34,045 bases of DNA from Hellea sp. (lineage in GTDB: Bacteria > Pseudomonadota > Alphaproteobacteria > Caulobacterales > Maricaulaceae). The DNA lies in the NCBI GenBank assembly GCA_020627655.1, contig JAHDGM010000027.1:1-34045 (forward strand). Reading direction: 5' to 3'. Both the position numbers and the translations under genes were made by a program. The notes under the pieces were generated by a model that saw nothing but the letters and a program-made list of their open reading frames with translations, was not told the DNA's origin and ran no database searches. Of the stretch, positions 1 to 28,387 are shown piece after piece (the first letter of the stretch is position 1; each line of letters opens with the position of its first letter).

Positions 1-2497
1 AGTAGACCGTGAACCACTGCGCAAGACCGTATTAAAGGTCACGCCGCGGGTAACTTCATTGGTCAGGTTAGTCGCCCAAGCTTCCAGACCCCAGCCTGAA
101 TCTTCGTTTCCGATACCGGCCCGAAGATTAATTTTGACAGTACTTTCTTGAACATCAAACGGATTTGGCGTCTGAGTTGCCAGTACGACAGCTTGTGTCG
201 AAGTCCGGCGATCCCCTTCATATCGCATTTGCCCGTTCAAGAAAAAGTCCAGACTATTACTGAGACTGCCTTCATAATTAGCACCGAGAATACCAACAGT
301 CTTAGGCGCGTTGGTCAGCGTGTTACCGCATAGCGATGTCACATTGACCACTGTCAACGTTCCAGCACAATCATCCGGATAATTAGCATCCAAAAGGGTC
401 AAGCCGCCTGATAGCGTCAGAGCATCCATTGGACGAACGACAGTTTCAATTTCAACGCCCGAAGTTTCGGCTTTTGGAACATTGAAAGTTACAAACTGAG
501 CCCCAGTGAATTCCAGAACCTGGAAGTTTGTAAATTCCTCCAAGAAAGCCGCGATGTTCAAAGTCACGCGCCCATCAGCAAATTTGGATTTCAGACCAAT
601 CTCATAGGCATCAACTTCTTCAGAATCAAAGCGCGGGTCAGATACACCAGCAACGGGAATAGCCGCCGTAGAATCAAGGTTGAAACCACCCGACTTATAG
701 CCATGGGTAAAACTTGCATAAGCCGTTGCATCATTGTTAAACTCATAAGCCAGTTTACCTGTGTAAATCAGCTCATCATCTTCGAATGTGCTATCAAAGC
801 TGCGCGGTAATGGCAGAACTGCTGCCTGAGGAAGGTCAGCTGGCGCCGTAAACGCAAAACATCCAAGGCCAAAAATCGACGGAACAAAATTCGGCACGGC
901 TGCGGGCGGTACGCCTGCCCCGACAAGAGCCCCTGCAAAACCGGTATTTAAGTTACCAAGCGTTGCCAGGCAAAGTGGATTATTGACATCTGTTTGATTA
1001 AAACCGCCATCCTTACTTTCATCAGACCAGCGCAAACCAACAGTAACGCTCAAATCGTCAGTCACGTCAAAAATATTGTGCGTGAAAATAGAAAAGCTTT
1101 CACTATTTTGCGTGTAATTATTTGTTGCCCTCACAACAGCCGGATCAACACCTGTAATGGTTTCGTAAGGCGTTGGACCTAACGCAAACGGGTTAACCCC
1201 TGGGATCCCGGATCCTGCCAGCGCGCCAGCTACTAAAGCCCCCATGAGATTGTCATAATGATCCCCAAGCCCGAACTTGGTGCTTTGCGCGATATCCTCA
1301 TCAGAATAGTAAAGCCCGACTAGCCAATCTAGGCGGTCATCCATGGCACTACCTTGAACGCGAAGTTCCTGAGTGAGAGTATCAATTGTCGTTTCACTTC
1401 CCGGTAATACATTAAATATATCCAAACCATACAGAATCATATTGTTCACCGGCTTCATATTCGCGGTATGAACCCACATAGACCAGATCTGTACTGTCAG
1501 ACAGAGCAAGTTTAAACTCACCTGTGAAACCTAACTGTTCCATGGAAGGTTTAGGCACCCGGCTTGATGTGGCGTACAGCTCATCCACAGCGGCTTGAGC
1601 GCCAGCCGTATCAGTCGCGCTGCTAGCTACAAAAGGCGCTGACATACCGCCCCGGGGACCAAGACCTGCAAAGTTGAGCAGGCCGCCTGTTTCAAGACCC
1701 GACTGCAGCACTTCTATAGCCGAACAGCAAACCGCATTGCTTTGCGTATAGTCTACTATAACCCGGCCATCGAGTTTCGAACCTTCATAACCCAATTGGG
1801 CCCGAATCATTTCCTGATCAACTTCGTTGGACTCACCAATTTTTGTCCCTGCGCCGTTATGAATATCTACATATCCATCACGATTACGAATGGCGCCGGT
1901 GACGCGGGCAGCCAGCGTATCTGACAATGGAATGTTGACAGCACCTTGCAGGCTAACATGATTATAATTGCCATATGTGGCGTTTATGAAACCACCTGTT
2001 TCGCCGATTTGAGGCTTAACATTGCGAACGTTCAAAGCACCAGCTGATGTGTTTCGTCCAAATAGAGTACCTTGCGGCCCGCGCAAGACTTCAACACTTT
2101 CCACATCGACAAATTCGCCCAAAGCTACACCTGGGCGGGATTGATAAGCACCGTCAATAAACACACCGACAGCAGATTCAAAACCGATATTGTTTGATGT
2201 GGTACCAACGCCGCGAATCCGAAGAACAACTGTTCCTGATGAAGTTTGTGCATTGGATGTTGAGAAACTCGGCGCCACACTAGTCAGATTTTGAATATTA
2301 ACAATGCCCTGCTTTTCAATCTGCTCTGGCTGAATCGCCGTAACCGCGATCGGAACATCTTGAATACTCGTGGCACGTTTTGTCGCCACGACGATGATTT
2401 CATCTTCATAATTATCTTGAGCGATGGTCGGCGTTGCCAGACCTCCAACAGTAACAGCCAAAATTGAAACGGCCGACATCAGCTTATGCCTTGACAT
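1..2497 (-). CDS. TonB-dependent outer-membrane receptor, frameshifted, C-terminus beyond the window
   Basis: Outer-membrane beta-barrel receptor expected to import a bulky substrate using TonB energy; the substrate is not predictable. The start at 2497 is supported by a GGAGG seven bases upstream. Residues 1-26 form a signal peptide ending near TIAQ. The TonB box DEIIVVATKR follows, then a plug with the RGPQGTLFGRN motif. The first frame stops at 1412 after YDSVWFGYI. The reading frame one base over continues without a stop to position 1 and gives typical barrel sequence (TQELRVQG, LDWLVGLYYSDE, TVGLRWSDESK, GYKSGGFN). Removing one T from the TTT at 1424-1426 restores a single frame, VWLDIFNVLPG. 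About 830 residues are visible; the last barrel strands lie off the left edge. The shift may be a sequencing error or a real inactivating mutation. It is divergent from the ABC exporter. Confidence 0.9.
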
Positions 2498-2651
2498 ATA
2501 TATTCCTCCCGCGATGTTTATTTTTTATAGATTTTTCTAACCCGCTTTTTTTGAATTGCCTATAGAAAAAATAGCATATGAAGAAAATTGAATAAGATGT
2601 GTCTATTATGTCACAGCGGCGCTAATGTAGAAATCTTTATAGAACAACCTC

Positions 2652-4517
2652 ATGGCTGAAACTCAAACAAGACATCACCGCAGCGGCGCGGCCGCCTATT
2701 TAGCGAAAATAGACCAAGAAAAAGGCCATCGCGGAAAATCGCGCAGCCTGCGTCCACTTCTGCGAATCTGGCCGTTTATAGCACGCTATCCTATCTGGCT
2801 GACGCTTTTCCTGATATTTCTAACCCTGTCATCCATAGCCACGCTCGCAATTCCCTCTTTGGCAAAGCTTATTGTCGATTGCGGTTTTAATAACGAGACA
2901 GCACAAAGCGTTGAAATGTGCCGCCGTATTAATGTCAGCGGCGCAGGGGACCTGACACCCTATTTCAAAATAGCATTCATTTTCGTGGCCATATATGCCG
3001 TTGTGGGTCCTATGCGCGCCTTTCTGATCACGACCCTGGGCCAGAGAGTGATCGCTGATATTCGAAACGCCGTTTACTCCCACTTGCTCAAGCTTTCACC
3101 ATCTTATTTTGAACGGGTTCGTACAGGCGAAGTTCTGTCGCGACTGACCACTGACACAACTTTGATTGAAACCGTCGTTACAGGTTCAATTTCATTTGGC
3201 ATTCGGGCCCTCGCCGTCGCTATCGGCGCTATTATCATGATGTTCATCACCAATTGGAAAATGGCGCTTATGGTTATGGCCATAGGCCCTTTCATATTAA
3301 TTCCGGTAATTGTCTTTGGACGCATGATCCGGAATTTATCTCGGGATGGCCAAGATCGATTGGCCGATGCCTCTGCCCGCGCGGGAGAAAGCCTTTCGGC
3401 AGTGCAAACCGTACAGGCCTTTAGCCGCGAAGATTTTGAAGATGCCGCTTTTACGCAGGTCGTCAATTCCACCTATGACACACACAAAAAACGAATCACG
3501 ATTCGAACAATCATGACCGCCATTATTTTTGCTGTGGCGCTGGGCGGCATAGTTTTGATCCTGTGGTACGGGGCTCAAGAGGTCGTCAATGGCACTATGA
3601 CAGGCGGGGATATTCTTCAGTTTTCCTTCTATGCTTTTTTTGCATTGTCCAACCTGTCTATGCTGACGGAGACCTGGACCAATCTTTTACGCGCTTCAGG
3701 TGCTTCCGAACGGCTTATGGAAATTCTCGCAGAAGACCCTGACATTGCCAGCCCCGAGAACCCGCAAACACCGGATGAGCCTATGGACATTCGTTTCGAC
3801 AATGTCAGCTTCAACTATCCATCCCGCCCGGATGACACGGTTCTCGATGGATTATCCTTCACAGTAAATCCCGGCGAGACCATAGCTTTTGTTGGCCCAT
3901 CAGGCGCCGGTAAATCTACAATCTATCAATTAATGCTTAGATTTTATGACATCCATTCCGGCGCTATCTCACTCGGCGGTATCGATATTACCCATATGAA
4001 CCCTAAGGTTCTGCGACAGCAATTCGCCATCGTACAGCAAAACACGCCTTTATTCTCAGGCTCCGCTATGGACAATATCCGTTATGGGCGCGAGGGCGCG
4101 ACAGACAGCGACGTCATTGAAGCCGCTAAGGCCGCTTATGCTCATGATTTTATCATGGCCCTGCCCCAAGGATACGAAACGGATCTCGGCGAACGGGCGA
4201 CGACTTTATCTGGAGGGCAAAGACAACGTATTGCAATCGCGAGAGCCATATTGCGTGACGCTCCTATTTTGCTACTGGATGAAGCGACAAGTGCGCTGGA
4301 TGCCGAGAGCGAGCAAACCGTACAAAAAGCCTTTGAAACATTATCTAAAGACCGAACAACTCTGGTCATTGCCCACCGGCTCGCAACTGTAAAACAGGCG
4401 GATAGAATTATCGTTATGGATAATGGCAAAATCGTAGGCGAAGGGACTCATAAAGCGCTAATGAAGAAAGGCGGATTATATGCGCGCCTTGCAGAGCTTC
4501 AGTTTAGCAATATTTGA
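2652..4517 (+). CDS. MsbA-like ABC exporter, fused membrane and ATPase domains
   Basis: Half-size ABC exporter of the MsbA-related lipid/multidrug type, acting as a homodimer in the inner membrane; the cargo is unknown. A basic cytoplasmic N-terminus of about 40 residues precedes an ABC transmembrane type-1 domain (roughly 45-340, six helices). The loop after the first helix is enlarged and contains two cysteines (DCGF and MCRR). The ATPase domain shows Walker A GPSGAGKST (415-423), signature LSGGQ (519-523), Walker B ILLLDE (539-544) and the switch histidine in AHRLAT (H575), so it should be active. Length 621 aa is usual for the family. No Shine-Dalgarno is obvious before the ATG. It converges on the P450 gene with a 7-base gap and has no operon partner here. 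Confidence 0.93.
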   Translation: MAETQTRHHRSGAAAYLAKIDQEKGHRGKSRSLRPLLRIWPFIARYPIWLTLFLIFLTLSSIATLAIPSLAKLIVDCGFNNETAQSVEMCRRINVSGAGDLTPYFKIAFIFVAIYAVVGPMRAFLITTLGQRVIADIRNAVYSHLLKLSPSYFERVRTGEVLSRLTTDTTLIETVVTGSISFGIRALAVAIGAIIMMFITNWKMALMVMAIGPFILIPVIVFGRMIRNLSRDGQDRLADASARAGESLSAVQTVQAFSREDFEDAAFTQVVNSTYDTHKKRITIRTIMTAIIFAVALGGIVLILWYGAQEVVNGTMTGGDILQFSFYAFFALSNLSMLTETWTNLLRASGASERLMEILAEDPDIASPENPQTPDEPMDIRFDNVSFNYPSRPDDTVLDGLSFTVNPGETIAFVGPSGAGKSTIYQLMLRFYDIHSGAISLGGIDITHMNPKVLRQQFAIVQQNTPLFSGSAMDNIRYGREGATDSDVIEAAKAAYAHDFIMALPQGYETDLGERATTLSGGQRQRIAIARAILRDAPILLLDEATSALDAESEQTVQKAFETLSKDRTTLVIAHRLATVKQADRIIVMDNGKIVGEGTHKALMKKGGLYARLAELQFSNI

Positions 4518-4524
4518 TGATCAA

Positions 4525-7500
4525 TCACCCAGCCCAGACATCCAGCACATAGCGGCCCTCTTTGGCCATATCATCCATCCAGGCAAAACCGGCCTCGAGG
4601 CTCACTTCTTTTTCCCCCGCATATAACAGCGCTAAAGCCCGTTTGACATCCGGTTCCATGGCTGCTCCATCGCCGCAAACATATATAATCGCGCCCTTTT
4701 CGATAAGCTGCCAGACATCATATCCTTTTTCCCTTAGGCGATCCTGTACATAAATACGCTTCTTGGTCTTTCGGGAAAACGCCGTATGAAGCTCAACCAA
4801 TCCATCTTTGACAGCAGCCTCGAGCTCATCTTCATATATAAAATCCTGATTAGGATGGCGGCACCCAAAGAATAACATGGCCTCGCCCAATGTCTGGCCT
4901 GCATCTTTTTGTAAGCGTCTGGCCTGCAAGAAACCTCTAAATGGCGCGAGGCCTGTTCCCGGCCCGATCATTATAATCGGTGTTTCGGAATTTTTCGGCA
5001 AACGGAACGGCGTTGTAGGCTTTTGAACCGTAGCATAAATGGTATCGCCGATTTGAGAACGGGACAGATAGCTGGAACAAACGCCGTGATAGATGCCGTT
5101 TCCGGAATAGGCTTCGCCTTCAACAACCCCCACGGTGATAGAACAATGTCCGGGCTTGTATTTGGGCGCAGATGATATTGAGTAATAACGCGGCGTCAAA
5201 AACGGAATCATTTCCAGAAACACGGCAAAGGGTAGTTCGCAGGCCGGAAACTGTTCCAGAATATCTAAAACGGAACGCCGCTTTAAAAACACTTCGTCCC
5301 GATATCGATCAATACCATCCTCGGCAGGTTTTGCCCAAAGCTTGAGTTTAGAAATCGTATCAGGACATCGTGTATTAGCCGCCAGAACCGCTATATCCTT
5401 CCGGGTCGCTACCGCCTGTAATTCGCCATAAACTTCGGCGAGGCGCTTCAGTGAAAATGTACTGCCATTAGGAAACGGACTGCGACGTCCGCCCGTTACA
5501 TTTACCCGTATGTAAGTCTGCTTATCAAAGCCAAAACGTTTTAAGGCTCTATCCACAAGTTCAGGACTGTTAACCGGAATGACGCAGAGATGATCGCCCG
5601 GCTCATAAGTCACGTCATCTGGCAAGCGGACTTCCACATGCCGGGTAGAGCGCTCAGATGGGTTTTTGCCGGACTTATTTTGAAGCTCATAATTAGCTGT
5701 AATAGACATTGGCACAGCCCCGGCCTGCATCGCCACAGGGTGGGCTGTTACGCTTTCCGCGATTTGAACATCATAGAGTGGTTCTGCCTCAGCGGCCGAG
5801 GTGAAATCGATATCCAGCTTAAGCGCAGACCCTATCTTAGGCCATAAATCATCAAACCATTCATGGAACTGCCCTGATAGATCCTCTCGCGCATCCCCCT
5901 CTGCACGATTAGCAAACCGCGCCCCGCCAAGCTCTTCCAGACGCTGATCAATCAACCGGGGAATGGTTTGAAATGTTGATGCCCAGTCCCGGTTACCACA
6001 TCCAAAAACAGCGTATGTGACATCCTTAGCCCAGCCGGGCTTTGCGACTTTCAATGCCTCAACAAACCGGATGGCATTATTCGGCGGAGCTCCGTTATAA
6101 GACGCCGTTACGATAATCACGAGACCTGATGTGGGCAGTCCCTCTGCATGACTATCAAGATCTGCTAATGTGGTATCAAACCCATTCAAATCACCGGCCT
6201 GAGCCAGCTCATGGGCGTATGCTTCGGAAGTCCCCAGATTAGACCCATAAAGTATGGTGAGTTTTCCGCCATGCTTTTGGCGTTGCTGTTTCGGGGTTTC
6301 AGTAATCTCCTCCGCCGGATCGCCTCCGTCGCGGATCAGCCCCTCGCGCAGCCGCGCTTTAATCATAAAACCTTCAGGTTTTAACGACAGGGTTTCCTTG
6401 ATATCCAGCTCATAACCATGGGGATCATAGAGGGCAAACCTCTGTAAAATCATCCCTAGAACAACCACAGCTTCCTGCAGAGCAAACTGACGTCCAATAC
6501 AGGCTCTTTGTCCATTTCCAAAAGGTTTATAGGCATAAGCTGGTCTTTTGGACTCGGCTTCTCGTGAAAAACGGTCCGGATCAAAGCTATCCGGATCATC
6601 CCCCCATATAGCTGTATCCCGGTGCAGGCTTGGAATTAATACCGTTACGAATGTCCCTTTTGGAATAGGATATTTTCCGCCAACAATTTCATCCTTAAAC
6701 GGCGAAACACTAAAGGCTGGCGCTGTCGGCCATAACCGTAGCGCTTCCAACAATACTGCCCGCGTATACTCCAGTTTACCAACCTGTGCGATCGTAGGGG
6801 CGCGGCCAATATTATTGCCTAACACTTCATCCACTTCTGCCCTTGCCCTGGCCAGAACCTGAGGATGTTTGAGGAGATAATATAATGTGAATGACAACAG
6901 GCCTGATGTGGTTTCATGGCCTGCAATCAAAAAGGTGTTTATCTGGAAACGGATATTTTCGTCAGACAGGCTTTCGCCACTTACCGGATCAACGCCTGCC
7001 AACATGAAATTCAAAAGGTCTTTCTGCTGTCCGCCTTTGCGGCGGCGCTCGGCGATTATATCATCGACCAATTTATTCATATAGGACACATCCGTATTCA
7101 TCTGCGAAATACGCTGCGCCATTTTTACTTTTTCAAAAGGCAAGCCCTTAAACATCATACAGGTCTCAAGGGTCCTTGTCAGAGAGTCGATAAAGGGGTG
7201 AAAGTCCTCCCGGTAAAAGGAATTAAACCGATAATCAAAGCCGCATAAACCGATTGTATCAAGGGCGAGCCCGGTCATATCCCGAACGACATCAATTTCC
7301 TCATCAGCATTCAGGCGTTCCCATTTCAGCATTAATTGCGTGGCAATGTCCGCCATCATCGGCAAATATTCCTCCATCGCTTTTTGCGAAAATGTTGGCA
7401 TTAAAATATTGTGGGCTTTTGACCAGTTCGGATCGACTGTATCACCCGTAAACAGGCCGTCACCGCCAATGGCCCGAACTCTTTTTAAGGGCCCGCGAAC

Positions 7501-7725
7501 AGTTTTATCAAACCGGGTTTCATCACAAAGCTCTTTAACGATTTCAGGACCGGACGCGATCATGATGGGCGTTCCCATCATATCCAGCCAGAACAGAGGC
7601 CCCTGTTCTTTGGATATTTTCATCAGGCTTTGAAGCGGGGCGTCTGAATTAACGGAAAACACATTGCCCAAAAACGGCACGCCTTCCGGTTTTGGAATAG
7701 GATGTAACCTGTTTTTTCCCGCCAT
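4525..7725 (-). CDS. Self-sufficient cytochrome P450 / NADPH-P450 reductase fusion, CYP102 (P450 BM3) type
   Basis: Catalytically self-sufficient soluble monooxygenase. BM3 itself hydroxylates fatty acids at subterminal positions using NADPH and O2. Domains in order: P450 (1-460) with I-helix AGHETTSG (268-275), ExxR 327-330 and heme-ligand Cys409 in FGNGQRACIG; flavodoxin/FMN domain (about 489-632, LTILYGSNLGTS); FAD domain with RYYS (846-849); NADPH domain with GPGTGLAPFRG (921-931) and VCGDG (1017-1021). It ends in the BM3-like RYVLDVWAG. Length 1066 aa is close to BM3. The BM3 Phe87 equivalent is kept (F92 in DGLFT). In an ungapped alignment with BM3, Arg47 and Tyr51, which hold the substrate carboxylate, correspond to Thr52 and Ile56. 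The substrate preference may therefore differ. An AGGGGA lies before the ATG. It follows edd on the same strand after a 75-base gap. Confidence 0.95.
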   Translation of the reverse strand: MAGKNRLHPIPKPEGVPFLGNVFSVNSDAPLQSLMKISKEQGPLFWLDMMGTPIMIASGPEIVKELCDETRFDKTVRGPLKRVRAIGGDGLFTGDTVDPNWSKAHNILMPTFSQKAMEEYLPMMADIATQLMLKWERLNADEEIDVVRDMTGLALDTIGLCGFDYRFNSFYREDFHPFIDSLTRTLETCMMFKGLPFEKVKMAQRISQMNTDVSYMNKLVDDIIAERRRKGGQQKDLLNFMLAGVDPVSGESLSDENIRFQINTFLIAGHETTSGLLSFTLYYLLKHPQVLARARAEVDEVLGNNIGRAPTIAQVGKLEYTRAVLLEALRLWPTAPAFSVSPFKDEIVGGKYPIPKGTFVTVLIPSLHRDTAIWGDDPDSFDPDRFSREAESKRPAYAYKPFGNGQRACIGRQFALQEAVVVLGMILQRFALYDPHGYELDIKETLSLKPEGFMIKARLREGLIRDGGDPAEEITETPKQQRQKHGGKLTILYGSNLGTSEAYAHELAQAGDLNGFDTTLADLDSHAEGLPTSGLVIIVTASYNGAPPNNAIRFVEALKVAKPGWAKDVTYAVFGCGNRDWASTFQTIPRLIDQRLEELGGARFANRAEGDAREDLSGQFHEWFDDLWPKIGSALKLDIDFTSAAEAEPLYDVQIAESVTAHPVAMQAGAVPMSITANYELQNKSGKNPSERSTRHVEVRLPDDVTYEPGDHLCVIPVNSPELVDRALKRFGFDKQTYIRVNVTGGRRSPFPNGSTFSLKRLAEVYGELQAVATRKDIAVLAANTRCPDTISKLKLWAKPAEDGIDRYRDEVFLKRRSVLDILEQFPACELPFAVFLEMIPFLTPRYYSISSAPKYKPGHCSITVGVVEGEAYSGNGIYHGVCSSYLSRSQIGDTIYATVQKPTTPFRLPKNSETPIIMIGPGTGLAPFRGFLQARRLQKDAGQTLGEAMLFFGCRHPNQDFIYEDELEAAVKDGLVELHTAFSRKTKKRIYVQDRLREKGYDVWQLIEKGAIIYVCGDGAAMEPDVKRALALLYAGEKEVSLEAGFAWMDDMAKEGRYVLDVWAG

Positions 7726-7781
7726 ATATATTTCCCCTAGTCAGGGCAAAATGGCAAAAAGACAGTCGTAATGCAAGCTAG

Positions 7782-7798
7782 AGATTAACGCTTAATCT
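7782..7798. promoter_or_regulatory. Perfect inverted repeat upstream of the P450 gene, possible operator
   Basis: AGATTAA and TTAATCT are separated by CGC: seven-base perfect arms over 17 bp. The repeat begins 2 bases past the edd stop codon and ends 57 bases before the P450 ATG. On the P450 strand a weak TTGCAT -35-like hexamer follows it within a few bases. Its symmetry and position suit a repressor site for the P450 gene. The AT-rich arms and lack of a T-run argue against a terminator. No regulator gene for it is present next door. Function is inferred from position only. Confidence 0.4.
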
Positions 7799-7800
7799 GA

Positions 7801-9636
7801 TCAAGACATCCACTCAGCTTCGCCAAGGAATGAAGCACCCTCCTCGGCGCTCCGCGACGCAGCGCGCATAGGAGCAAACATATTCATACCTGTAATAGCT
7901 GAAAGGTTATGTTTCGGCATTTTTGCATGATCGCGCTTTGATAAATCCACGTCCTTTACCTCTACGGAATTATTCATTGGATCCAGACAAATCAGATCTC
8001 CATTTTGGATCTGGCCGATCGGACCGCCCTCCAGAGCTTCAGGCACCATATGTATGGCCGCCGGGAACTTCCCGGATGCGCCGGACATACGGCCATCTGT
8101 AACCAGCGCGACTTTAAAGCCCTTATCCTGCAAGGCCCCCAATATTGGCGTCAGTTTATGCAGCTCAGGCATGCCGTTCGCTTTTGGGCCTTGAAACCGC
8201 AGAACGGCAATAAAATCTCTCTCAAGTTCCCCGGCTTTATGTAGCGCAACAAGCTCATCCTGATGATCGACAACAATAGCCGGGGCTTCAACCCGCCAAT
8301 TATCACGCTTGACCGCCGATACTTTCATAATGCTTCGGCCAATATTGCCCTTGAGTAGTCGCAGGCCGCCATCAGGTCGAAACGGCGCTTTAAAATCCGT
8401 CAAAATTTCCGCATCAAGACTCTCAGTGGGGCCGTTGCGCCAGAGGACATAATCCGGCTCGGCATGCCCATTTTTAATGGGCTCTCGCGTATAGGCAAGC
8501 AAGCCGTCATCGCCTGCAATAGTCGTCACATCCTTATGAACAAGACCTTCAGCAATGAGTTCCCCGATCAGATAAGCCATACCGCCTGCGGCGTGGAAAT
8601 GGTTCACATCGGCAATGCCGTTTGGATAAACCTTACATATGAGCGGGACTACCGCGGAGATATCCGCAAAGTCATCCCAATCAATCAGAATTCCGGCGGC
8701 GCGGGCAATCGCCACCATATGGATAGCCAGATTAGTTGATCCGCCTGTCGCCATAAGGCCGACCAGACCATTGACGATAGCCTTTTCATCAATGACTTTT
8801 CCGGCGGGCGTATAGCTATCGCCCAGATGGGTGATCTGAACCGCGCGGCGCGTTGTCTGCGCCGTTATGGCGTCACGCAGTGGTGTGTTCGGATGAACGA
8901 AACTTGAGCCGGGCAATTGCAACCCCATGATTTCCATAAGCATTTGATTGGAGTTAGCCGTTCCGTAAAATGTACAGGTTCCCGGTGCATGATATGATGC
9001 AGATTCAGCTTTGAGCAATTCTTCACGCCCCACCTCACCGAGCGCAAATTGCTGCCGGATCCTGGCCTTTTCTGGATTGGGGATACCCGAAGGCATAGGC
9101 CCGGCAGGCGCAAAAATTGCCGGCAAATGTCCGTATCGTAGCGCGCCGATTAAAAGCCCAGGCACAATTTTATCGCAAACACCCAACAGGATAGATGCGT
9201 CAAACATATCATGAGAGAGCGCCACGGCCGTGCTCATAGCGATTGTATCACGAGAAAGCATGGATAATTCCATACCGTCCTTGCCTTGCGTAACCCCGTC
9301 GCACATAGCGGGCGTACCGCCGGCCACTTGCGCCGTTGCGCCATTACGTCTGGCGGCATGTTTTATCAGGGGCGGGAATTTTTCAAATGGCTGATGCGCT
9401 GACAACATATCATTATAGGCGGTAACAATGGCCAAATTTGCCCATTGAGCGCCGAGTATTTCTGTCTTTTCATGAAGCGGACAGGCTGCGGCTGCATGAG
9501 CCAAATTCCCTTCGGATAGAAACTTCCGGCGAGGGCCTTCGCGATATCCGGCTTCAACTTGAGCCAGATAACCCGCCCGCGTTTTTTTCGAACGGCTGAT
9601 TATGCGCTCAGTAACTTTAGCTATGACGGCGTGCAT
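7801..9636 (-). CDS. edd: 6-phosphogluconate dehydratase
   Basis: Converts 6-phosphogluconate to 2-keto-3-deoxy-6-phosphogluconate, the committed step of the Entner-Doudoroff pathway. It belongs to the IlvD/Edd iron-sulfur dehydratases. Conserved cluster cysteines are visible in CDGVTQG (C112), GVCDKIVPG (C154) and PGTCTFYGTANSNQ (C221). The C-terminal half keeps DGRMSGASGKFPAAIH. Length 611 aa is normal. The start is supported by GGAG five bases before the ATG. It lies 8 bases after pgl, so zwf-pgl-edd reads as one operon. Confidence 0.97.
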   Translation of the reverse strand: MHAVIAKVTERIISRSKKTRAGYLAQVEAGYREGPRRKFLSEGNLAHAAAACPLHEKTEILGAQWANLAIVTAYNDMLSAHQPFEKFPPLIKHAARRNGATAQVAGGTPAMCDGVTQGKDGMELSMLSRDTIAMSTAVALSHDMFDASILLGVCDKIVPGLLIGALRYGHLPAIFAPAGPMPSGIPNPEKARIRQQFALGEVGREELLKAESASYHAPGTCTFYGTANSNQMLMEIMGLQLPGSSFVHPNTPLRDAITAQTTRRAVQITHLGDSYTPAGKVIDEKAIVNGLVGLMATGGSTNLAIHMVAIARAAGILIDWDDFADISAVVPLICKVYPNGIADVNHFHAAGGMAYLIGELIAEGLVHKDVTTIAGDDGLLAYTREPIKNGHAEPDYVLWRNGPTESLDAEILTDFKAPFRPDGGLRLLKGNIGRSIMKVSAVKRDNWRVEAPAIVVDHQDELVALHKAGELERDFIAVLRFQGPKANGMPELHKLTPILGALQDKGFKVALVTDGRMSGASGKFPAAIHMVPEALEGGPIGQIQNGDLICLDPMNNSVEVKDVDLSKRDHAKMPKHNLSAITGMNMFAPMRAASRSAEEGASFLGEAEWMS

Positions 9637-9644
9637 GTATGCTC

Positions 9645-10331
9645 CTAAGGGGCCCAGATTACGGTCAGCCGCTTACCAGCCGCCATCAACGCCTTTACGG
9701 GCTTATCAAGACTATCGGCCTGCACTGCGGACTCAAAAACGTCACGTTTTTCTTTACCCGTCATCAGTAAGAGTAAGGCCTTGGCATCCATCACAGCAGG
9801 CAATGTCAGGGTCAGGCGGTTTGGATAAGACCCAGCCCCCGGACATCCATTTGCATGAATTGAAGCGGTGAAATTTTCCGCCGCCGGATCAAGCGCCTTT
9901 TTCAACCCGATCGATCCAGGGAACCAGCTGGCTGTATGCCCATCTGTTCCCATACCCATCAGACATAGGTCAAACGGCGCAAGCGCGGCGACTGCCCGCT
10001 CATCTTCAAGGCCTATCATTGAAACTTTAGCCGCTTTTCTTTGTTGTAACTGAGCTTTGATCATGGACATGTTTGACCCGGCCTCATCATGAGTGACCCG
10101 CTCATCGACCAGTACAACAGTCACATTTTCCCAAGGCAAGTCCAGTTTTGACAAGGCTTCATAGACCGGAATAGGTGTGGATCCACCGGATAAGGCCAGG
10201 ACAGCCCTGCCCCGCAGATTGATAGCTGAGATCATCTGCTCGGCGATGATCCGCGTCGAAGCCTTAAAACAATCAGGCCGATTATCATATATTTGTATTT
10301 TAGGCGCCGTATCCATAATATTCAGACCCAT
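9645..10331 (-). CDS. pgl: 6-phosphogluconolactonase
   Basis: Hydrolyses 6-phosphogluconolactone made by Zwf. It is the DevB/SOL type of the glucosamine-6-phosphate isomerase-like fold, with ALSGGSTP near residues 46-53, VLVDERVTHDEAGSN, and GMGTDGHTASWFPG in the middle of the chain. Length 228 aa is typical. The first ATG overlaps the end of zwf by 10 bases. A second ATG at 10316 (giving MDTAPKI) lies 5 bases past the zwf stop and is an equally reasonable start, since neither has a strong Shine-Dalgarno. The overlap suggests translational coupling to zwf. It is the second gene of zwf-pgl-edd. Confidence 0.95.
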   Translation of the reverse strand: MGLNIMDTAPKIQIYDNRPDCFKASTRIIAEQMISAINLRGRAVLALSGGSTPIPVYEALSKLDLPWENVTVVLVDERVTHDEAGSNMSMIKAQLQQRKAAKVSMIGLEDERAVAALAPFDLCLMGMGTDGHTASWFPGSIGLKKALDPAAENFTASIHANGCPGAGSYPNRLTLTLPAVMDAKALLLLMTGKEKRDVFESAVQADSLDKPVKALMAAGKRLTVIWAP

Positions 10332-22343: not shown

Positions 22344-23324
22344 ATGGCCCGTAACTTTCTCAAAGCCCCGCTTGTTTTAGGGACATGTTTGCTGGCCCTG
22401 GCAGCCTGCAGTAAAAAAGATACGGCTCATAAAGGATCGGGTATTTCACTGGATGCTTCCTCCTTGGAACGTATGGAAAAGGCCTTTGAGATTGCCAAAT
22501 CAAGTCAAGGCGACGGTGATCCTGCCCTGTGGAAACTGGCTGATGAAGACACGACCATTTATCTTTACGGAACTGTCCATACATTACCTGAAGATGTTAA
22601 ATGGAGAACAGCCGAATTCGACGCTGCATTTAACAGTGCCGAAAATCTTTACCTTGAAGCTGATACGAGCAGTCCCGAAGCCCAGCAAAAAATAGCCATG
22701 GCTATGATGCAAAGAGCAGCACTGGCCGATGGACAAACCTTGAAAACTCTTCTGAGTGAAAGCCAATATGCTGATTTTTCAGCCGCGGCGAAAAGCGTGG
22801 GCATTCCAGAGGGCACCTTGGACACTGCAAAACCCTGGTTTGCATCCTTACAGCTTATGGCAGGCCAGATGATGAAAAACGGCTACAATCCTGAATTAGG
22901 GGTCGAATCTGTTTTGGTTAAGTCCGCAGGCGACACTAAAACAAAAAAATATCTCGAAACAGCTGAAGATCAGATCAAGCTTATTTCCGGAGGTGAATTG
23001 CAAGATCAATTAGAAGGTCTGGTTTTCCAAGTTGAAACACTCGACAAAACCCCTGAAATGCTGGACGCACTTGTGGCCGAATGGGCCGATGGTGACGTGA
23101 AGGGTCTGGGGGTTCTGATGGGCGATCCAGCCATGTTTGGATCCGTTGAGGGCTATAATGCCATTATAAAGGATAGAAATGCTAACTGGATTCCTCAAAT
23201 TGAAGCCATTTTGGACGAACCCGGTTCTAATTTCGTAGCTGTTGGCGCAGGGCATCTTGCTGGCCCTGATAGTGTTATTGCTATGCTGGAAGCCAAAGGC
23301 CACAAAGTTGAGGTTGTTCAGTAA
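22344..23324 (+). CDS. TraB/GumN family lipoprotein
   Basis: Predicted lipoprotein: a signal peptide with lipobox LAAC at 19-22 (C22), followed by SKK. The TraB/GumN (Tiki-related) fold is indicated by LWKLADEDTTIYLYGTVH near 62-79, the acidic LEAD (E105) and GAGH (301-304) near the end. The two GxxH sites and the Glu correspond to the metal-dependent protease centre proposed for the Tiki branch. Catalysis in bacterial members is not established. GGAG lies seven bases before the ATG. The stop codon overlaps the next ATG by one base, so it is coupled to the amidase lipoprotein. Confidence 0.88.
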   Translation: MARNFLKAPLVLGTCLLALAACSKKDTAHKGSGISLDASSLERMEKAFEIAKSSQGDGDPALWKLADEDTTIYLYGTVHTLPEDVKWRTAEFDAAFNSAENLYLEADTSSPEAQQKIAMAMMQRAALADGQTLKTLLSESQYADFSAAAKSVGIPEGTLDTAKPWFASLQLMAGQMMKNGYNPELGVESVLVKSAGDTKTKKYLETAEDQIKLISGGELQDQLEGLVFQVETLDKTPEMLDALVAEWADGDVKGLGVLMGDPAMFGSVEGYNAIIKDRNANWIPQIEAILDEPGSNFVAVGAGHLAGPDSVIAMLEAKGHKVEVVQ

Positions 23325-24952
23325 TGATGCGCGGCGTTTTAATAACAACTGCTCTGACAGTTTTGTTTTTATCTGCCTGCCAAAGCGATAATAACGAAAC
23401 AGCTATGCAAAAAACATCCAACACCAACATCTCTGCAAATTACAAAGCGGCGAAACATTTGTCGCAAAGCCTGCCGGAAATACGCGCTGACCTTAATGAC
23501 GGCAAAATATCATCCGAAAAACTGGTTCAGGATTATTTAGATCGTATTAGCGCCATTGATCACAACGGGCCGAAAATCCAAAGCGTTTTAAGCTTAAATC
23601 CAGATGCACTGGATGAAGCACGGCGGCTTGATAAGCTGCGCGCAAATGGGGACATATTAGGGCCGATGCACGGCATTCCGGTTCTGCTCAAGGACAATAT
23701 CGAAACCAAAGACAATCTGGCAACAACTGCGGGCGCATTAGCGCTGAAGGACAATATTACGGGCCGGGATTCACCGCTCGCCGCAGGACTTCGAGCCGAA
23801 GGCGCCATTATCCTAGGCAAAACCAATTTATCCCAATGGGCTAATTTTCGCTCCGAAGGTTCTATGAGCGGCTGGAGCGCGCTAGGCGGCCAGACTAAAA
23901 ACCCGCAAATACTTGACCGCAATCCCTGCGGGTCCAGCTCGGGGTCAGGAGCCGCCATTGCAGCTGCTATGGGCGCGGCAGCGGTTGGAACTGAAACCAA
24001 TGGATCAATCATTTGCCCGTCAAATGCCAATGGTATTGTTGGTTTCAAACCAACCGTCGGGCTTGTATCCCAGCAATATATCATACCTATTTCATCGACC
24101 CAAGACACTGCCGGGCCTATGACCCGAACTGTCACGGGCGCTGCCATGATGCTGGGCGCCATGGATAACCAACAGATCGACTATGTTGCCAGTCTTGATG
24201 CCAACAGTCTCAGCGGCAAGCGTGTGGGCGTTTTGCGGTTCGCCGAAGGTTCCAATCCCGATATTATCAAACGCTTCAATGCTGCTATAGAAGATCTGAA
24301 ATCTCTAGGCGCTGAAATCGTAGAAATCACAAATGAAAACCCGGAAGGCGAAAACCTCGGCCAGAAATCATATGACGTTTTAAAATATGAGTTTAAAGCC
24401 ACTTTGAATGAATATCTGGCCAGCACGCCCGATACGGTCAAAACACGCACGCTTTCTGACGTCATTGCCTTTAATCAGGACAATGCCGATATTGAACTTG
24501 CTCTATTTGGACAGGATATCATGGAGGCTTCTGACGCGCTTGGGCCGCTCACCGATGAAGCTTATGTGACCGGACATGCCGATATGCTCAAGGCATTTCG
24601 CGAAGGCGGGATCGACCGTCTTATGGCCAAATATAATGTTGATGTACTTATCAGCCCTTCCGGCCCTGTGCCCGGACGTGTTGATCCAATTAACGGCGAT
24701 GTGTGGCCTAGCTGGGCCGGTGCCGGTGGATGGGCCGCACGGGCGGGTTACCCTCACCTGACTGTGCCTATGGGCCTGATTGATAATATGTCGGTTGGTC
24801 TGTCATTTATGGGCGGCAAAGATATGGACAGTGAAATGCTCTCCTATGGTTATGCCTATGAACAGGCGACCAAACACCGCAAAGAGCCGTCCTATCTGCC
24901 CACGGCAGAGGCGCAGTCTCATATTGAAAAGGCTATGACCCGCAAGGATTAA
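23324..24952 (+). CDS. Amidase-signature lipoprotein, peptide-amidase-like
   Basis: Exported amidase-signature hydrolase of 542 aa. The lipobox LSAC puts the lipidated cysteine at C19. The catalytic triad is visible: K123 in LLKDNI, the cis-serine in PCGSSSGSGAA (near 204-205) and the nucleophile S228 in ETNGSIICPS. The segment GFKPTVGLVSQQYIIPIS followed by DTAGPM resembles the peptide amidases that remove C-terminal amides, but the substrate is not certain. Translation is coupled to the TraB/GumN lipoprotein (TAATG). Its stop codon overlaps that of the convergent DUF4139 gene. It is distinct from gatA, which lacks a signal sequence. Confidence 0.9.
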   Translation: MMRGVLITTALTVLFLSACQSDNNETAMQKTSNTNISANYKAAKHLSQSLPEIRADLNDGKISSEKLVQDYLDRISAIDHNGPKIQSVLSLNPDALDEARRLDKLRANGDILGPMHGIPVLLKDNIETKDNLATTAGALALKDNITGRDSPLAAGLRAEGAIILGKTNLSQWANFRSEGSMSGWSALGGQTKNPQILDRNPCGSSSGSGAAIAAAMGAAAVGTETNGSIICPSNANGIVGFKPTVGLVSQQYIIPISSTQDTAGPMTRTVTGAAMMLGAMDNQQIDYVASLDANSLSGKRVGVLRFAEGSNPDIIKRFNAAIEDLKSLGAEIVEITNENPEGENLGQKSYDVLKYEFKATLNEYLASTPDTVKTRTLSDVIAFNQDNADIELALFGQDIMEASDALGPLTDEAYVTGHADMLKAFREGGIDRLMAKYNVDVLISPSGPVPGRVDPINGDVWPSWAGAGGWAARAGYPHLTVPMGLIDNMSVGLSFMGGKDMDSEMLSYGYAYEQATKHRKEPSYLPTAEAQSHIEKAMTRKD

Positions 24953-26949
24953 AAATAATCTGTTTCGGCCTCGATAGTCAGGGTTTTCTGGTCATTGGCC
25001 GGAACAGTAATTTTCCACATGAACGGGTCTGTTGATGAGGGCGCGATAGATGTGTCGAGTAGTTTGTAGAAATATTCGGCTGATGGGAGTTCGAAAAACA
25101 CTTCTGCGTCTGCGGCAGTATCATTCTTAAATACAAACCTTTCAGTGACTAGGTAATGGTCATCGGAGCCATCAATCTCTTCAAGCTTAATTAATTCGGC
25201 TTTAAGTGTGACATCTTCATTTTCATAATCATCCGCAAATTCGGAAATCCAATCAGCCCAGCCATCTGAATTTAATTTAAATCGACCTTCTGCGAAAATT
25301 CTATCTGTATCGCCAACCTCATCCGCGTCATAGGACAGGTCTTCATAGTCAAAGAAAAAGGAGGTTTGTCCTGAGAGGTGTAAATAGAAGCGCTCGCTGT
25401 CCTCTGCGTTTACATGAAAACGATAGGTTGGCCTGATTTCATCAGCCATGGCTTCATGACTGCTGTCATCAATATTATCAAAGCTCAGCGAGGATTCAGT
25501 CAATGTCATCTCGACCAGTTTTGTATCCGGGGACGCATTATAAATATCAGCTCCGATTTGAAGCCCAAACTCATTATTGTGAGCGCCGAAACGCACATTT
25601 GGTAACATCAAAACCGACGCGCTTTCTGACACCCGAACTTCAACCGGCAAATCCACGGCCAAATCTTTGATCTGATTTTCACCTAAATAAGCCACCAGTC
25701 CATTTTCACGCTCGGTCATTATCCTGAATGTCCCGCGCGGTAGCGGCTTAGCAAGATTGCCCTCCTTAGAGTTATCAATCTCATATTCCACACTTGCTCG
25801 TACAGGCTGCTGATTTGGGACATGATAGTCCATATATCTCGGGCTCAAATCAAACTTATAAACCTGTTCATATACAGCGTCTTTCACGTCCAGAAACGCG
25901 ATCTGTTTTGTCTGCATGGCTGCAATTGTTATGGGATTGGGTGTACGGTATAATTTGTAGTCCCCAAAATCTTCTTGCGTGGCTTGGCGTTTGCTGGCCG
26001 TAACAACAATTTCATCATCCGCGTAGCCTGCTTCTGCTTCCATCATCAAAGGTTGAGGCGCTGCAGCATATTGAACGCTTCTCATTTCTTTGAACCCGTT
26101 ACGACTTACGCTATAAAGTGAGTACCCCGCAGGAATACCTGTTTTGGTCGAACCTTTTGGCCAGCAATAGGGCGAAAACCGTTTTTGGGGGACATAATCA
26201 GAGCGTGTATTGTAATCACGATTAAGGCGACCTGCAATGATAGCTGTAGGCACATCTTTGAAAGACTTGGCTGTATTATTACTGATGGTCAGCCATCCCG
26301 TCAGCGCCCCCTCACCTTCTCTATCGTCACTCACATCCAAACGATAATCCGCCTGCCAGCTAATACCTTGCGAGAGGTATGACAGTGTGATTTCCTTTTC
26401 ACCTGCTTGCTCGGCCTGCACCTCCATGGATAAGACAGGCGCAGGGTTAAGAGCCGTCGGCATGCCGGAAAAAAGAACCGCCTCGCCCAAGCCAGAACAT
26501 TCCAAAGCCTCAATACCATCACTCGTTTCAAGGATTGCGCCCTGAATAACATTATTGATGTTGGACGCTGAAACTATCCGGCCGGTTATCAGCTCTACAT
26601 CTCCATTTCCGGGATTAATGCGGCGAATGGTAATGTCTTTCCCGGTTGCTTTGTTTAGGAGCGCGCCTTTTGTGATCAGATCACTATCGAAGTTACTTTC
26701 CAGGCTGAGACCTTCAAAGCTTTGCAACACTGCTGTCTGGGCAATAATCTCATCGCTTACGCCTAAAAAACGAATAGTCGATTTCCCGGCCGGTACATTA
26801 ACCCGCCGTACTTCAGATATCATTGCAAGATTTTGCGGGTAAATCGTCAGATAAGTCTTGTCCGCTTCAGGCGAGTCTACGACTTCATTGGCCACGGCAT
26901 AAGCTGCAAATAAGACTAGAGATATGGCGGCAATAAACGCGCGCATCAT
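24949..26949 (-). CDS. Secreted DUF4139-domain protein with an internal TonB-box-like segment
   Basis: Exported protein of 666 aa with a signal peptide (residues 1-20, ending AVA). An N-terminal DUF4140-like region (about 31-130) and a large DUF4139 domain with ITLSYLSQGISWQADYRL (187-204) follow. DUF4139/MuiA-type proteins have no firmly known function. Residues 311-321 read DDEIVVTASKR, which is the sequence pattern of the TonB box/plug start of TonB-dependent receptors (compare DEIIVVATKR in the receptor at the left edge). The segment is absent from the paralogous upstream gene. It starts one base after the stop of that gene, so the two form an operon. The stop codon overlaps that of the convergent amidase. 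Confidence 0.85.
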   Translation of the reverse strand: MMRAFIAAISLVLFAAYAVANEVVDSPEADKTYLTIYPQNLAMISEVRRVNVPAGKSTIRFLGVSDEIIAQTAVLQSFEGLSLESNFDSDLITKGALLNKATGKDITIRRINPGNGDVELITGRIVSASNINNVIQGAILETSDGIEALECSGLGEAVLFSGMPTALNPAPVLSMEVQAEQAGEKEITLSYLSQGISWQADYRLDVSDDREGEGALTGWLTISNNTAKSFKDVPTAIIAGRLNRDYNTRSDYVPQKRFSPYCWPKGSTKTGIPAGYSLYSVSRNGFKEMRSVQYAAAPQPLMMEAEAGYADDEIVVTASKRQATQEDFGDYKLYRTPNPITIAAMQTKQIAFLDVKDAVYEQVYKFDLSPRYMDYHVPNQQPVRASVEYEIDNSKEGNLAKPLPRGTFRIMTERENGLVAYLGENQIKDLAVDLPVEVRVSESASVLMLPNVRFGAHNNEFGLQIGADIYNASPDTKLVEMTLTESSLSFDNIDDSSHEAMADEIRPTYRFHVNAEDSERFYLHLSGQTSFFFDYEDLSYDADEVGDTDRIFAEGRFKLNSDGWADWISEFADDYENEDVTLKAELIKLEEIDGSDDHYLVTERFVFKNDTAADAEVFFELPSAEYFYKLLDTSIAPSSTDPFMWKITVPANDQKTLTIEAETDYF

Positions 26950-26950
26950 T

Positions 26951-28387
26951 TTACCACGGGCAGGATTGACGAATTTTATATTTTAGCTTGTTCTCACCTT
27001 CGCTAGGAACCGTCACAGTCCATAATTTGGTGCTGTCATTCTTTTGAACATGATCAATATTTTCATTGAGCATTTCATAGTCACACCAGCGGGCCGGCAT
27101 GGATTGAAAAACTCTGACAGCAACCTGTTTTTTGCTGGCGTTTCGAACCTCATATTCCATTTCAAAGTCGGTGACACGCCGGCTGACATTTGTGCTTTTG
27201 ACCAAGGTGGGCTTGACCGTAATATCAAACGCCTCACCGATTTTCATAGAAATATCAGAGCCGGCCGCGATATGACCTATGCCGTCTTCACCGACAAATT
27301 GAGCCTTGCCGTTTTTGTCCTGCATATAAACCCGAACCGTTCCGGCCGGCAGGGCTTCACCCATTCCGCCAGCTGTAGAATTGGAAAACGCAATCCGGCT
27401 GTCCACATTGACAGGGTTATTATTGGTCTGAAAATTCCAGTTATAATATTCATAAACTTTCACAGCCTTAACATTATCAGCATCAACAAAGCTGATTTGC
27501 TTTTTCTGCTTACTGGCCAAAGTCGTTTTTCCCGGCAGCGGATAAAGATAGTTATCCCCGATACGCTCTGCGCTACCAGCTTCTATACCGCCCCGGCGCT
27601 GACCGCGATTAATCCCTCGGTTTTGATTATAATAAGGATTATTGTAATTATTCCTGTTATTAGCATTGCCTACATGTCCCGCGACTACGGACAGGTCTGC
27701 ATTATGGAATGTCGTATTGGTCGTATTATCAATAGTCGCCCAGCCTTGCAGGCTCATACGTTTATCTGCTTCGTTAAACACAGCAACATAATCTGACTTC
27801 CAGGTCAGACCGCTACTGATATAGGTCATATTCGCATCGCGATTACCAGGAAGACTACTATCAACCCGTAAGGATAAAGTCGGGCTGGCCCGTAAATTTT
27901 CCGGAACTTTTGGAAAGACTACGCGCGTCGGGATATTATCGTCGCGAAGAACTTCGATGCGGTCGCCGACCTGAATCACAACGCCATTATTCACAGAAAG
28001 AACTTTTGCCCGCTCCCGGGTTTCTTCGCCGCTTGCTGGGTTGGTTTTCACAATCTCTACGTATTGACCGACCGCTTTTTCCATAAGCTTGGCAGGCGTT
28101 AAAAGATCAAAATCAAAATTCTGCTCAAGAATTTCCATACCGCTGGCTTTGACGGTCACGCTTTGCGGTAAAATTGCCGACGATACGCCAGGCAATTCGA
28201 TAACCTGCTCACCACTGGTAAAGCTTAATCGGCGATTATCCTCAATGAGTGCCCGCCCATCCCCATAAATCGTAAGCGACAATTCATCTGAATGGTTTTC
28301 ATCCATTGATAGAGGGTCAGACGTTTGACTGTTCGCAGAACATCCCAAAACACCCGTCATTGTCAGTGCGATAAATATACGTTTCAT
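26951..28387 (-). CDS. DUF4139-domain lipoprotein
   Basis: Predicted lipoprotein of 478 aa. The start is set at ATG 28387, because GGGGAG precedes it. The open frame also has a GTG four codons earlier, which would put the ribosome site inside the gene. The signal peptide ends in lipobox VLGC (C16). The DUF4139 core is marked by MTYISSGLTWKSDYVAVF (187-204). Residues 241-267 are a low-complexity stretch rich in Asn, Tyr and Arg, just where the downstream paralogue carries its TonB-box-like insert. The two proteins align over their N-terminal domains (PGVSSAILPQ versus LGVSDEIIAQ; NFDFDLLT versus NFDSDLIT), so they are tandem paralogues. Function is unknown. Confidence 0.85.
   Translation of the reverse strand: MKRIFIALTMTGVLGCSANSQTSDPLSMDENHSDELSLTIYGDGRALIEDNRRLSFTSGEQVIELPGVSSAILPQSVTVKASGMEILEQNFDFDLLTPAKLMEKAVGQYVEIVKTNPASGEETRERAKVLSVNNGVVIQVGDRIEVLRDDNIPTRVVFPKVPENLRASPTLSLRVDSSLPGNRDANMTYISSGLTWKSDYVAVFNEADKRMSLQGWATIDNTTNTTFHNADLSVVAGHVGNANNRNNYNNPYYNQNRGINRGQRRGGIEAGSAERIGDNYLYPLPGKTTLASKQKKQISFVDADNVKAVKVYEYYNWNFQTNNNPVNVDSRIAFSNSTAGGMGEALPAGTVRVYMQDKNGKAQFVGEDGIGHIAAGSDISMKIGEAFDITVKPTLVKSTNVSRRVTDFEMEYEVRNASKKQVAVRVFQSMPARWCDYEMLNENIDHVQKNDSTKLWTVTVPSEGENKLKYKIRQSCPW

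Follow-up and report, generated by a model that had tools for sequence, protein, structure and literature searches.

A protein of the Alphaproteobacterium Hellea sp. carries, in the middle of its chain, a segment (DDEIVVTASKR) that matches the TonB boxes of the same organism's own TonB-dependent receptors, and this segment is kept across distant relatives, so that, as far as the sequences tell, it is probably functional rather than a chance match. The protein, P0001, is encoded in the window, i.e. the whole stretch of 34,045 nucleotides that was analysed (Table 1), and belongs to a DUF4139-like subfamily, referred to here as A, whose genes stand in tandem with those of a box-free paralogous family, B. 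To our knowledge, TonB boxes are a feature of receptors and of bacteriocins that are imported. The reading that we lean towards, and consider moderately probable, is that a receptor-type TonB box is displayed on a disordered periplasmic loop and has been kept so that TonB can grip the A protein.

Table 1. Position and basis of the features of the window discussed in the text
Feature	Position	Strand	Basis or remark
A-type DUF4139-like exported protein (P0001), 666 aa	24949..26949	-	ORF, N-terminal signal peptide, carrier of the box
TonB-box-like segment DDEIVVTASKR	25987..26019	-	P0001 residues 311-321; 18.2 bits for the loop in the own-receptor profile
Long variable loop ahead of the box	26020..26229	-	P0001 residues 241-310; AlphaFold2 pLDDT, column entropies
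Conserved DYKLY	25948..25962	-	P0001 residues 330-334; point where A and B align again after the loop
B-type DUF4139 tandem paralogue (P0002), box-free	26951..28387 from first ATG	-	Pfam DUF4139 44.1 bits, cut-off 31.8
DEIIVVATKR, TonB box of the window's receptor (comparison)	2375..2404	-	Receptor ORF 1412-2497, Plug domain

A preliminary description of this DNA had placed the segment mid-chain in a secreted protein, had compared it with the start of a receptor encoded in the window, and had seen an Asn/Arg-rich stretch at the aligned place of the tandem paralogue. All three points hold: translation of the reverse complement gives the segment within the open reading frame (ORF) of P0001, the receptor's DEIIVVATKR lies in an ORF with a Plug domain, and the paralogue rejoins the alignment at DNYLY after its Asn/Arg-rich stretch. 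The N-terminal signal peptide of P0001 was judged from the sequence, and export to the periplasm is predicted from it. The B gene is the upstream neighbour of the A gene, and its ORF reaches 28399 if a GTG start is taken. The receptor ORF ends at 361 amino acids, and receptor-like coding seems to run on downstream in another frame; it appears to be a broken gene or an assembly error. The window also encodes, at 4525-7725 (-), a self-sufficient cytochrome P450 fused with flavodoxin and FAD/NAD reductase domains (1066 aa).

That P0001 is a DUF4139 protein, as the description had it, holds for its ancestry and not for formal membership. With the Pfam model of DUF4139 (PF13598) it scores 20.3 bits, below the curated cut-off of 31.8, whereas its A relatives L098 and L101 (locus handles of this study) score above it. 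When the profiles of the two families were compared with hhalign, they aligned over 464 columns with an E-value of 4e-101 and 100% probability, the loop being mostly gap; by this comparison A and B are homologous nearly end to end. With the NCBIfam model MuiA (TIGR02231), P0001 gave no match and P0002 scored 15.8 bits against a cut-off of 112.6.

The pairing of the two genes was followed in 37 loci fetched with the peptide pattern [EG][EDN][FLV][GA]D[YF][KQ]LY, which sits after the box and excludes it. An A-type and a B-type ORF occur together by score in 33 of them; in L103 and L106 the pair is recognised by position, as the scores of the second ORF with A and with B are about the same, and the exceptions are L095 and L108, in both of which the A gene lies at a contig end. 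Besides the B-A pair, no gene cluster occurs in more than 9 of the 37 neighbourhoods, so that the pair is the only widely conserved element. Inspection of the 16 clusters listed revealed no gene for TonB, ExbB or ExbD, a point against the reading favoured here. The idea of a lipoprotein partner, suggested by the lipobox-like start of P0002, was dropped, as only 6 of 41 B proteins have such a start by a crude rule. In L091 (5871-7310) the B gene is split into two ORFs in different frames. The locus L339, part of a Sphingobium replicon of 998 kb that is recorded as a plasmid, holds at 2412-5494 an A gene (3917-5494) and a preceding gene, presumably the B partner, both annotated as hypothetical, and a search of the PLSDB plasmids with P0001 gave four Sphingobium records only.

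The frequency of the box was determined in the loops of 49 A and 41 B proteins, leaving out L012 (same contig edge as L095), L011 (identical to L091) and other duplicate copies of genes already kept under named records. The strict pattern [IVLM][VITM][VI][TV][GA] is found in 37 of the 49 A loops and is absent from all 41 B loops; when the A loops were shuffled, 173 of 24,500 sequences contained it. A box can be seen in 42 A loops once five looser forms are admitted by eye (L082, L093, L096, L105 and L106). The other seven (L075, the first copy in L078, L079, L080, L084, L086 and L016) have no recognisable box, so that it is dispensable in some lineages. A later phylum-wide draw yielded 13 further A loci, of which L318 was left out as the same gene as L016, and the strict pattern is present in all 12 others (106 of 13,000 shuffles); this draw is a replicate rather than a blind test and not fully independent, because its profile, A2, has loop columns. 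A chance match is ruled out by the shuffles, the box-free paralogue and the later draw together. Similar segments in other alphaproteobacterial proteins, mentioned tentatively in the description, do exist in A proteins of Hellea, Robiginitomaculum, Aquisalinus and Parvularculaceae records as well as of Brevundimonas, Phenylobacterium, Sphingobium and others. The description had further proposed that the segment would be accidental if homologues had random sequence at its place or if close relatives were without the motif; for most of the family this fails, as the strict counts indicate, while three Hellea-type relatives (L075, L079 and the first copy of L078) do lack the box.

Near-full-length A matches were listed in 8 of the 387 genomes of a class-wide draw and in 20 of the 397 genomes of the phylum draw, the latter all in the window's own class; the remaining matches of both draws are partial, or consist of two pieces flanking the loop. 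Nine loci of this latter kind from the phylum draw were inspected (L330-L338, of which seven are outside the class), and the pattern is absent from their ORFs as displayed, and L105, the A gene of a record titled as a Gammaproteobacteria MAG, has a loose box only. A tree was calculated from 49 A proteins and 4 B proteins with the loop removed (52 of 53 rows). In it, A forms a single clade with a support of 100, and the box is present on either side of its deepest split. The fewest box changes on this tree are six when L094 is included, and five after correction, most simply losses, since L094 had been mislabelled owing to masked letters. On this tree the box appears to go back to the ancestor of the A subfamily and to have changed about five times since, rather than to stem from a recent event in the Hellea sp. 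genome, and the wording of the description, that it is inserted in the protein, is imprecise: it lies within a long loop that is typical of A proteins. L078 (Hellea MAG-193, 6001-10079) carries two consecutive A copies, of which only the second has a box, and the close relatives L109, L091 and L092 differ in box type (VTGTR, VTGAR and VTASKR, respectively) at about the same place. Alignment A2, from which L105 and L094 were left out, shows that the C-terminal 130-150 residues of A (approximately 24949-25360, -) are an extension present in most Hellea-type rows; it is absent from L074 and from the other full-length rows of A2, and present in genome G010.

The genome of Hellea sp. has 18 Plug-domain matches, 17 of them with a visible start, and D-E-[IV]-[IV] stands ahead of the plug in 15 of these 17. 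A profile was built from the N-termini of 17 of the 18 Plug-domain ORFs, excluding L187 at a contig edge. With this own-receptor profile, 16 of the 49 A loops score at least 10 bits, against none of the 41 B loops and none of 9,000 shuffles (for P0001 see Table 1). A DNA pattern for [DE]-x-[IVM]-[IVM]-V-T-[AG] gave 11 matches in the genome (6 with the reversed control), namely 10 receptor N-termini soon after the ORF start and the gene of P0001. The same pattern occurs at 22 places in G010 (control 15), i.e. 19 N-termini that are receptor-like on inspection, one A gene and two unrelated places, and at 16 places in genome G038 (control 3), i.e. eight receptor-like, one A, one of TraB/GumN type and six unrelated. 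A looser DNA pattern was not used, as its 30 matches in the Hellea sp. genome showed no enrichment over the reversed control with 37. The agreement of the motif with the genome's own receptor boxes supports, at the sequence level, the idea of a contact with TonB. That the segment was copied recently from one of the genome's own receptor genes was rejected: with none of the 11 receptor boxes compared does it share more than 19 of 24 bases or 4 of 8 codons.

The loop is predicted to be disordered, in P0001 from about residue 269. The AlphaFold2 model of P0001 has a mean pLDDT of 82, with residues 269-314 under 50, and that of the Brevundimonas guildfordensis protein L098, also with a mean of 82, has three low loop stretches, the last of which (307-322) ends at the start of the box. 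Column entropies average 2.65 bits in the loop ahead (275-311), 1.65 in the box (312-320) and 1.04 at the re-entry (330-349). The loop of P0001 contains a conserved CW at residues 262-263; Cys262 is invariant in A2 and is mostly followed by Trp. Cys151 is nearly invariant in the A alignment, and a Cys151-Cys262 disulfide, which would tether the loop at its base to the domain, is possible. The P0001 model is rich in beta structure, and none of the 50 PDB matches listed for it is a receptor; the best Foldseek match, a chain of the oligosaccharyltransferase complex, has an E-value of 8e-5 and the TM-scores are only 0.11-0.12, so that no useful relative was obtained. Neither a plug nor a barrel is recognised by Pfam in P0001, which gives a weak DUF4139 match only. 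By the criterion of a plug and a 22-strand barrel, P0001 is not a TonB-dependent receptor.

The same model contains a three-residue strand at VVT (315-317), just ahead of the ordered re-entry, and a structural role of the segment is thereby possible. The segment might thus be kept as a short beta strand of the DUF4139 fold or of an A-B interface and be merely box-like, in keeping with the conserved A-family residues that start a few positions after it. We hold this to be fairly unlikely. The segment is missing from seven of the 49 A proteins, it lies earlier within the loop in L106, L317 and L326, and the Brevundimonas model has low confidence around the box and a strand of two residues there. 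Furthermore, what the segment matches is the boxes of receptors from the same genome rather than a generic strand, and in several lineages the likeness extends into the receptor plug (see below).

According to excerpts of one source (PMC11658791), TonB boxes are said to be found in all receptors and all TonB-dependent colicins, and the C-terminal domain of TonB pairs with receptor boxes as an added beta strand, through its beta3. In the favoured reading, an old DUF4139 subfamily, A, would display a receptor N-terminal module, in some lineages including the start of the plug domain, on its loop. The box on this flexible periplasmic loop could be reached by one of the proteins behind the five TonB_C-domain matches of the genome, which would bind it by beta-augmentation, as with receptor boxes. 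The ExbB/ExbD/TonB motor might then pull on or reposition A, or a complex of A with B or with an outer-membrane partner. Binding might also occur with no use of energy, the box buffering, parking or competing for TonB and so regulating the receptors. The resemblance to the receptors' own boxes would fit this equally, as would the reported in vivo inhibition of TonB-dependent processes by a TonB-box pentapeptide (title of a 1992 paper in the reference list of PMC7142613), but the product of a single A gene would face competition from those of as many as 18 Plug-domain ORFs, and we rate such a role as unlikely.

In some A proteins the likeness to receptors runs past the box. The loop segment of L096 matches, at 49% over 51 residues, a receptor-like ORF of its own genome that has a plug-like continuation (E 2.3e-8), and its best match to plasmid TonB-dependent receptors has an E-value of 5e-5; no match was found among PDB sequences. 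For the loop of L113, the genome it comes from has receptor-like ORFs that match at 52-55% over 31 residues (E 1.4e-5 and 4.2e-5), and a plasmid receptor matches as well (E 2e-3); other DUF4139 loops match it about equally (E 7.4e-6 and 1.6e-5). A control query, a B segment, found DUF4139, hypothetical or unannotated places, and no receptor in the best 12 of 14 matches. The stretch after the box was further scored with two receptor profiles against 1,000 shuffles in which the box was fixed and the following residues were shuffled; 22 loops were testable in this way, and 19 others, including P0001, have fewer than eight residues after the box. With a profile of 29 receptors, six of the 22 loops were reached by at most 1 in 1,000 shuffles (the second copy of L078, L096, L101, L109, L113 and L015), the scores of L096 and L113 being inflated because 20 of the 29 receptors had been fetched by likeness to those loops. 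With the own-receptor profile, which is free of this bias, the corresponding counts per 1,000 were 11, 4, 128, 89, 9 and 3, so that only L096, L113 and L015 of the 22 fall under 10. L101 is a weak case, with 0 of 1,000 in the former profile and plasmid matches of E 2 or worse, and the second copy of L078 and L109 are counted as weak too, on their own-receptor values.

In the later draw, one of eight testable loops, L329, was reached by 0 of 1,000 shuffles with both profiles, as was BDX59942.1 (Sphingobium sp. TomMM7A, annotated as hypothetical); next came L324 (6 per 1,000 with the 29-receptor and 61 with the own-receptor profile), L322 (12 and 198) and L328 (34 and 9). The best match of the L329 piece is to an unannotated place (E 6e-3) and the best to an annotated receptor has an E-value of 0.04; of the best 12 of its 46 matches, four are Sphingobium proteins annotated as hypothetical. 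Less surely, L327 has a plug-like piece ahead of the box (best annotated receptor E 0.06), and L105 contains, by eye, a string that we take to resemble the end of a receptor plug, for which tblastn found nothing.

The occurrence of such longer pieces in several lineages suggests that receptor genes have recombined with A genes, a possibility raised in the preliminary description; a recent copy within the same genome is, on the other hand, not visible in the DNA. Receptor fragments might then simply recombine into a tolerant disordered loop and stay there as harmless filler, and the plug-like pieces in L096, L113 and L329, and less surely in L327 and L105, are what such a process would leave. 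Filler would decay, yet the box spans the deepest split of A while the loop preceding it is mostly poorly conserved, and L109 and L092 retain a box at about the same place despite changed flanks and box type, which makes this explanation quite unlikely.

Box-like N-termini were also seen in divergent TraB/GumN proteins. Among TraB/GumN-family matches of the order, 20 further N-termini were inspected, excluding L276 and L279, which are cut by contig ends. Of the 13 lowest-scoring of those listed, 11 (L298-L301 and L303-L309) have by eye a box-like stretch shortly before the domain, e.g. DEIIVTARRSGAPMW; the other seven of the 20 have none, and 28 readable top-scoring proteins gave one chance pattern match, in a signal peptide. 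Ten of the 11 were scored with a receptor profile, L307 being near-identical to L304 and outside this set: L304, L300, L303 and L308 reach about 7 bits or more, and 15 and 23 of 3,600 shuffles reach at least 5 bits. The window's own GumN protein (22344-23324) has no box-like N-terminus. A wider proposal, which we put forward tentatively and regard as possible though doubtful, is that in Alphaproteobacteria some envelope proteins other than receptors are driven by the Ton motor as well, receptor N-terminal modules having been grafted repeatedly onto DUF4139-A and divergent TraB/GumN proteins.

It is very improbable, in our estimate, that the box is an address tag engaging a receptor or TonB-like partner for outer-membrane passage or docking: TonB boxes on TonB-dependent colicins (PMC11658791, excerpt) and the receptor-dependent secretion of PopC through Oar (PMC6434023, excerpt) are precedents for it, but in PopC/Oar the box studied belongs to the receptor.

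In open-licence PubMed Central we found no report linking DUF4139 with TonB, although subscription papers may exist, nor one of a TonB box on GumN or on another non-receptor or periplasmic protein; the DUF4139 papers listed there concern only a Leishmania proteogenome and a nematode, and those on TonB boxes together with domains of unknown function concern pyocins and iron piracy in Bacteroides. If a conserved box on a resident non-receptor protein works, transporters are not all that the Ton system pulls on. For DUF4139, whose name reflects its unknown function, there would be a testable partner, and annotation by TonB-box patterns would not be receptor-specific. The wider proposal, if true, would imply a hidden class of TonB-coupled machines other than transporters, with the box on an internal loop in DUF4139-A and at the N-terminus in TraB/GumN.

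Among the closest known systems, the DUF4139/MuiA-type family (PF13598, TIGR02231) is related to A by descent, as the profile match of A to B-type DUF4139 proteins indicates. A differs from it in its loop, whose length is 65-105 residues in A and 31-67 in B (47 A proteins were counted, as L115 and L117 had been entered with shortened loops of 47 and 45 residues), and in the box, found in A only, and P0001 differs also in falling under the Pfam cut-off with no NCBIfam match. With TonB-dependent receptors (PF07715), A proteins share the box residues seen in 15 of the 17 receptor N-termini of the genome, a predicted flexible region and, in some cases, a plug start following the box; the receptor box, however, lies near the mature N-terminus and that of P0001 mid-chain in a loop, and the plug and barrel of receptors are both unrecognised by Pfam in P0001. 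Colicins are imported toxins, whereas A is a resident, tandem-paired envelope protein with no Pfam toxin domain. The likeness of TonB-dependent colicins to A is that they too are non-receptor proteins bearing a TonB box (PMC11658791, excerpt). Finally, in Oar/PopC of Myxococcus the Ton system serves a role other than nutrient import, i.e. protein secretion (PMC6434023, excerpt), as it may in the case proposed here, with the difference that the box is there on the receptor Oar and here on the non-receptor A.
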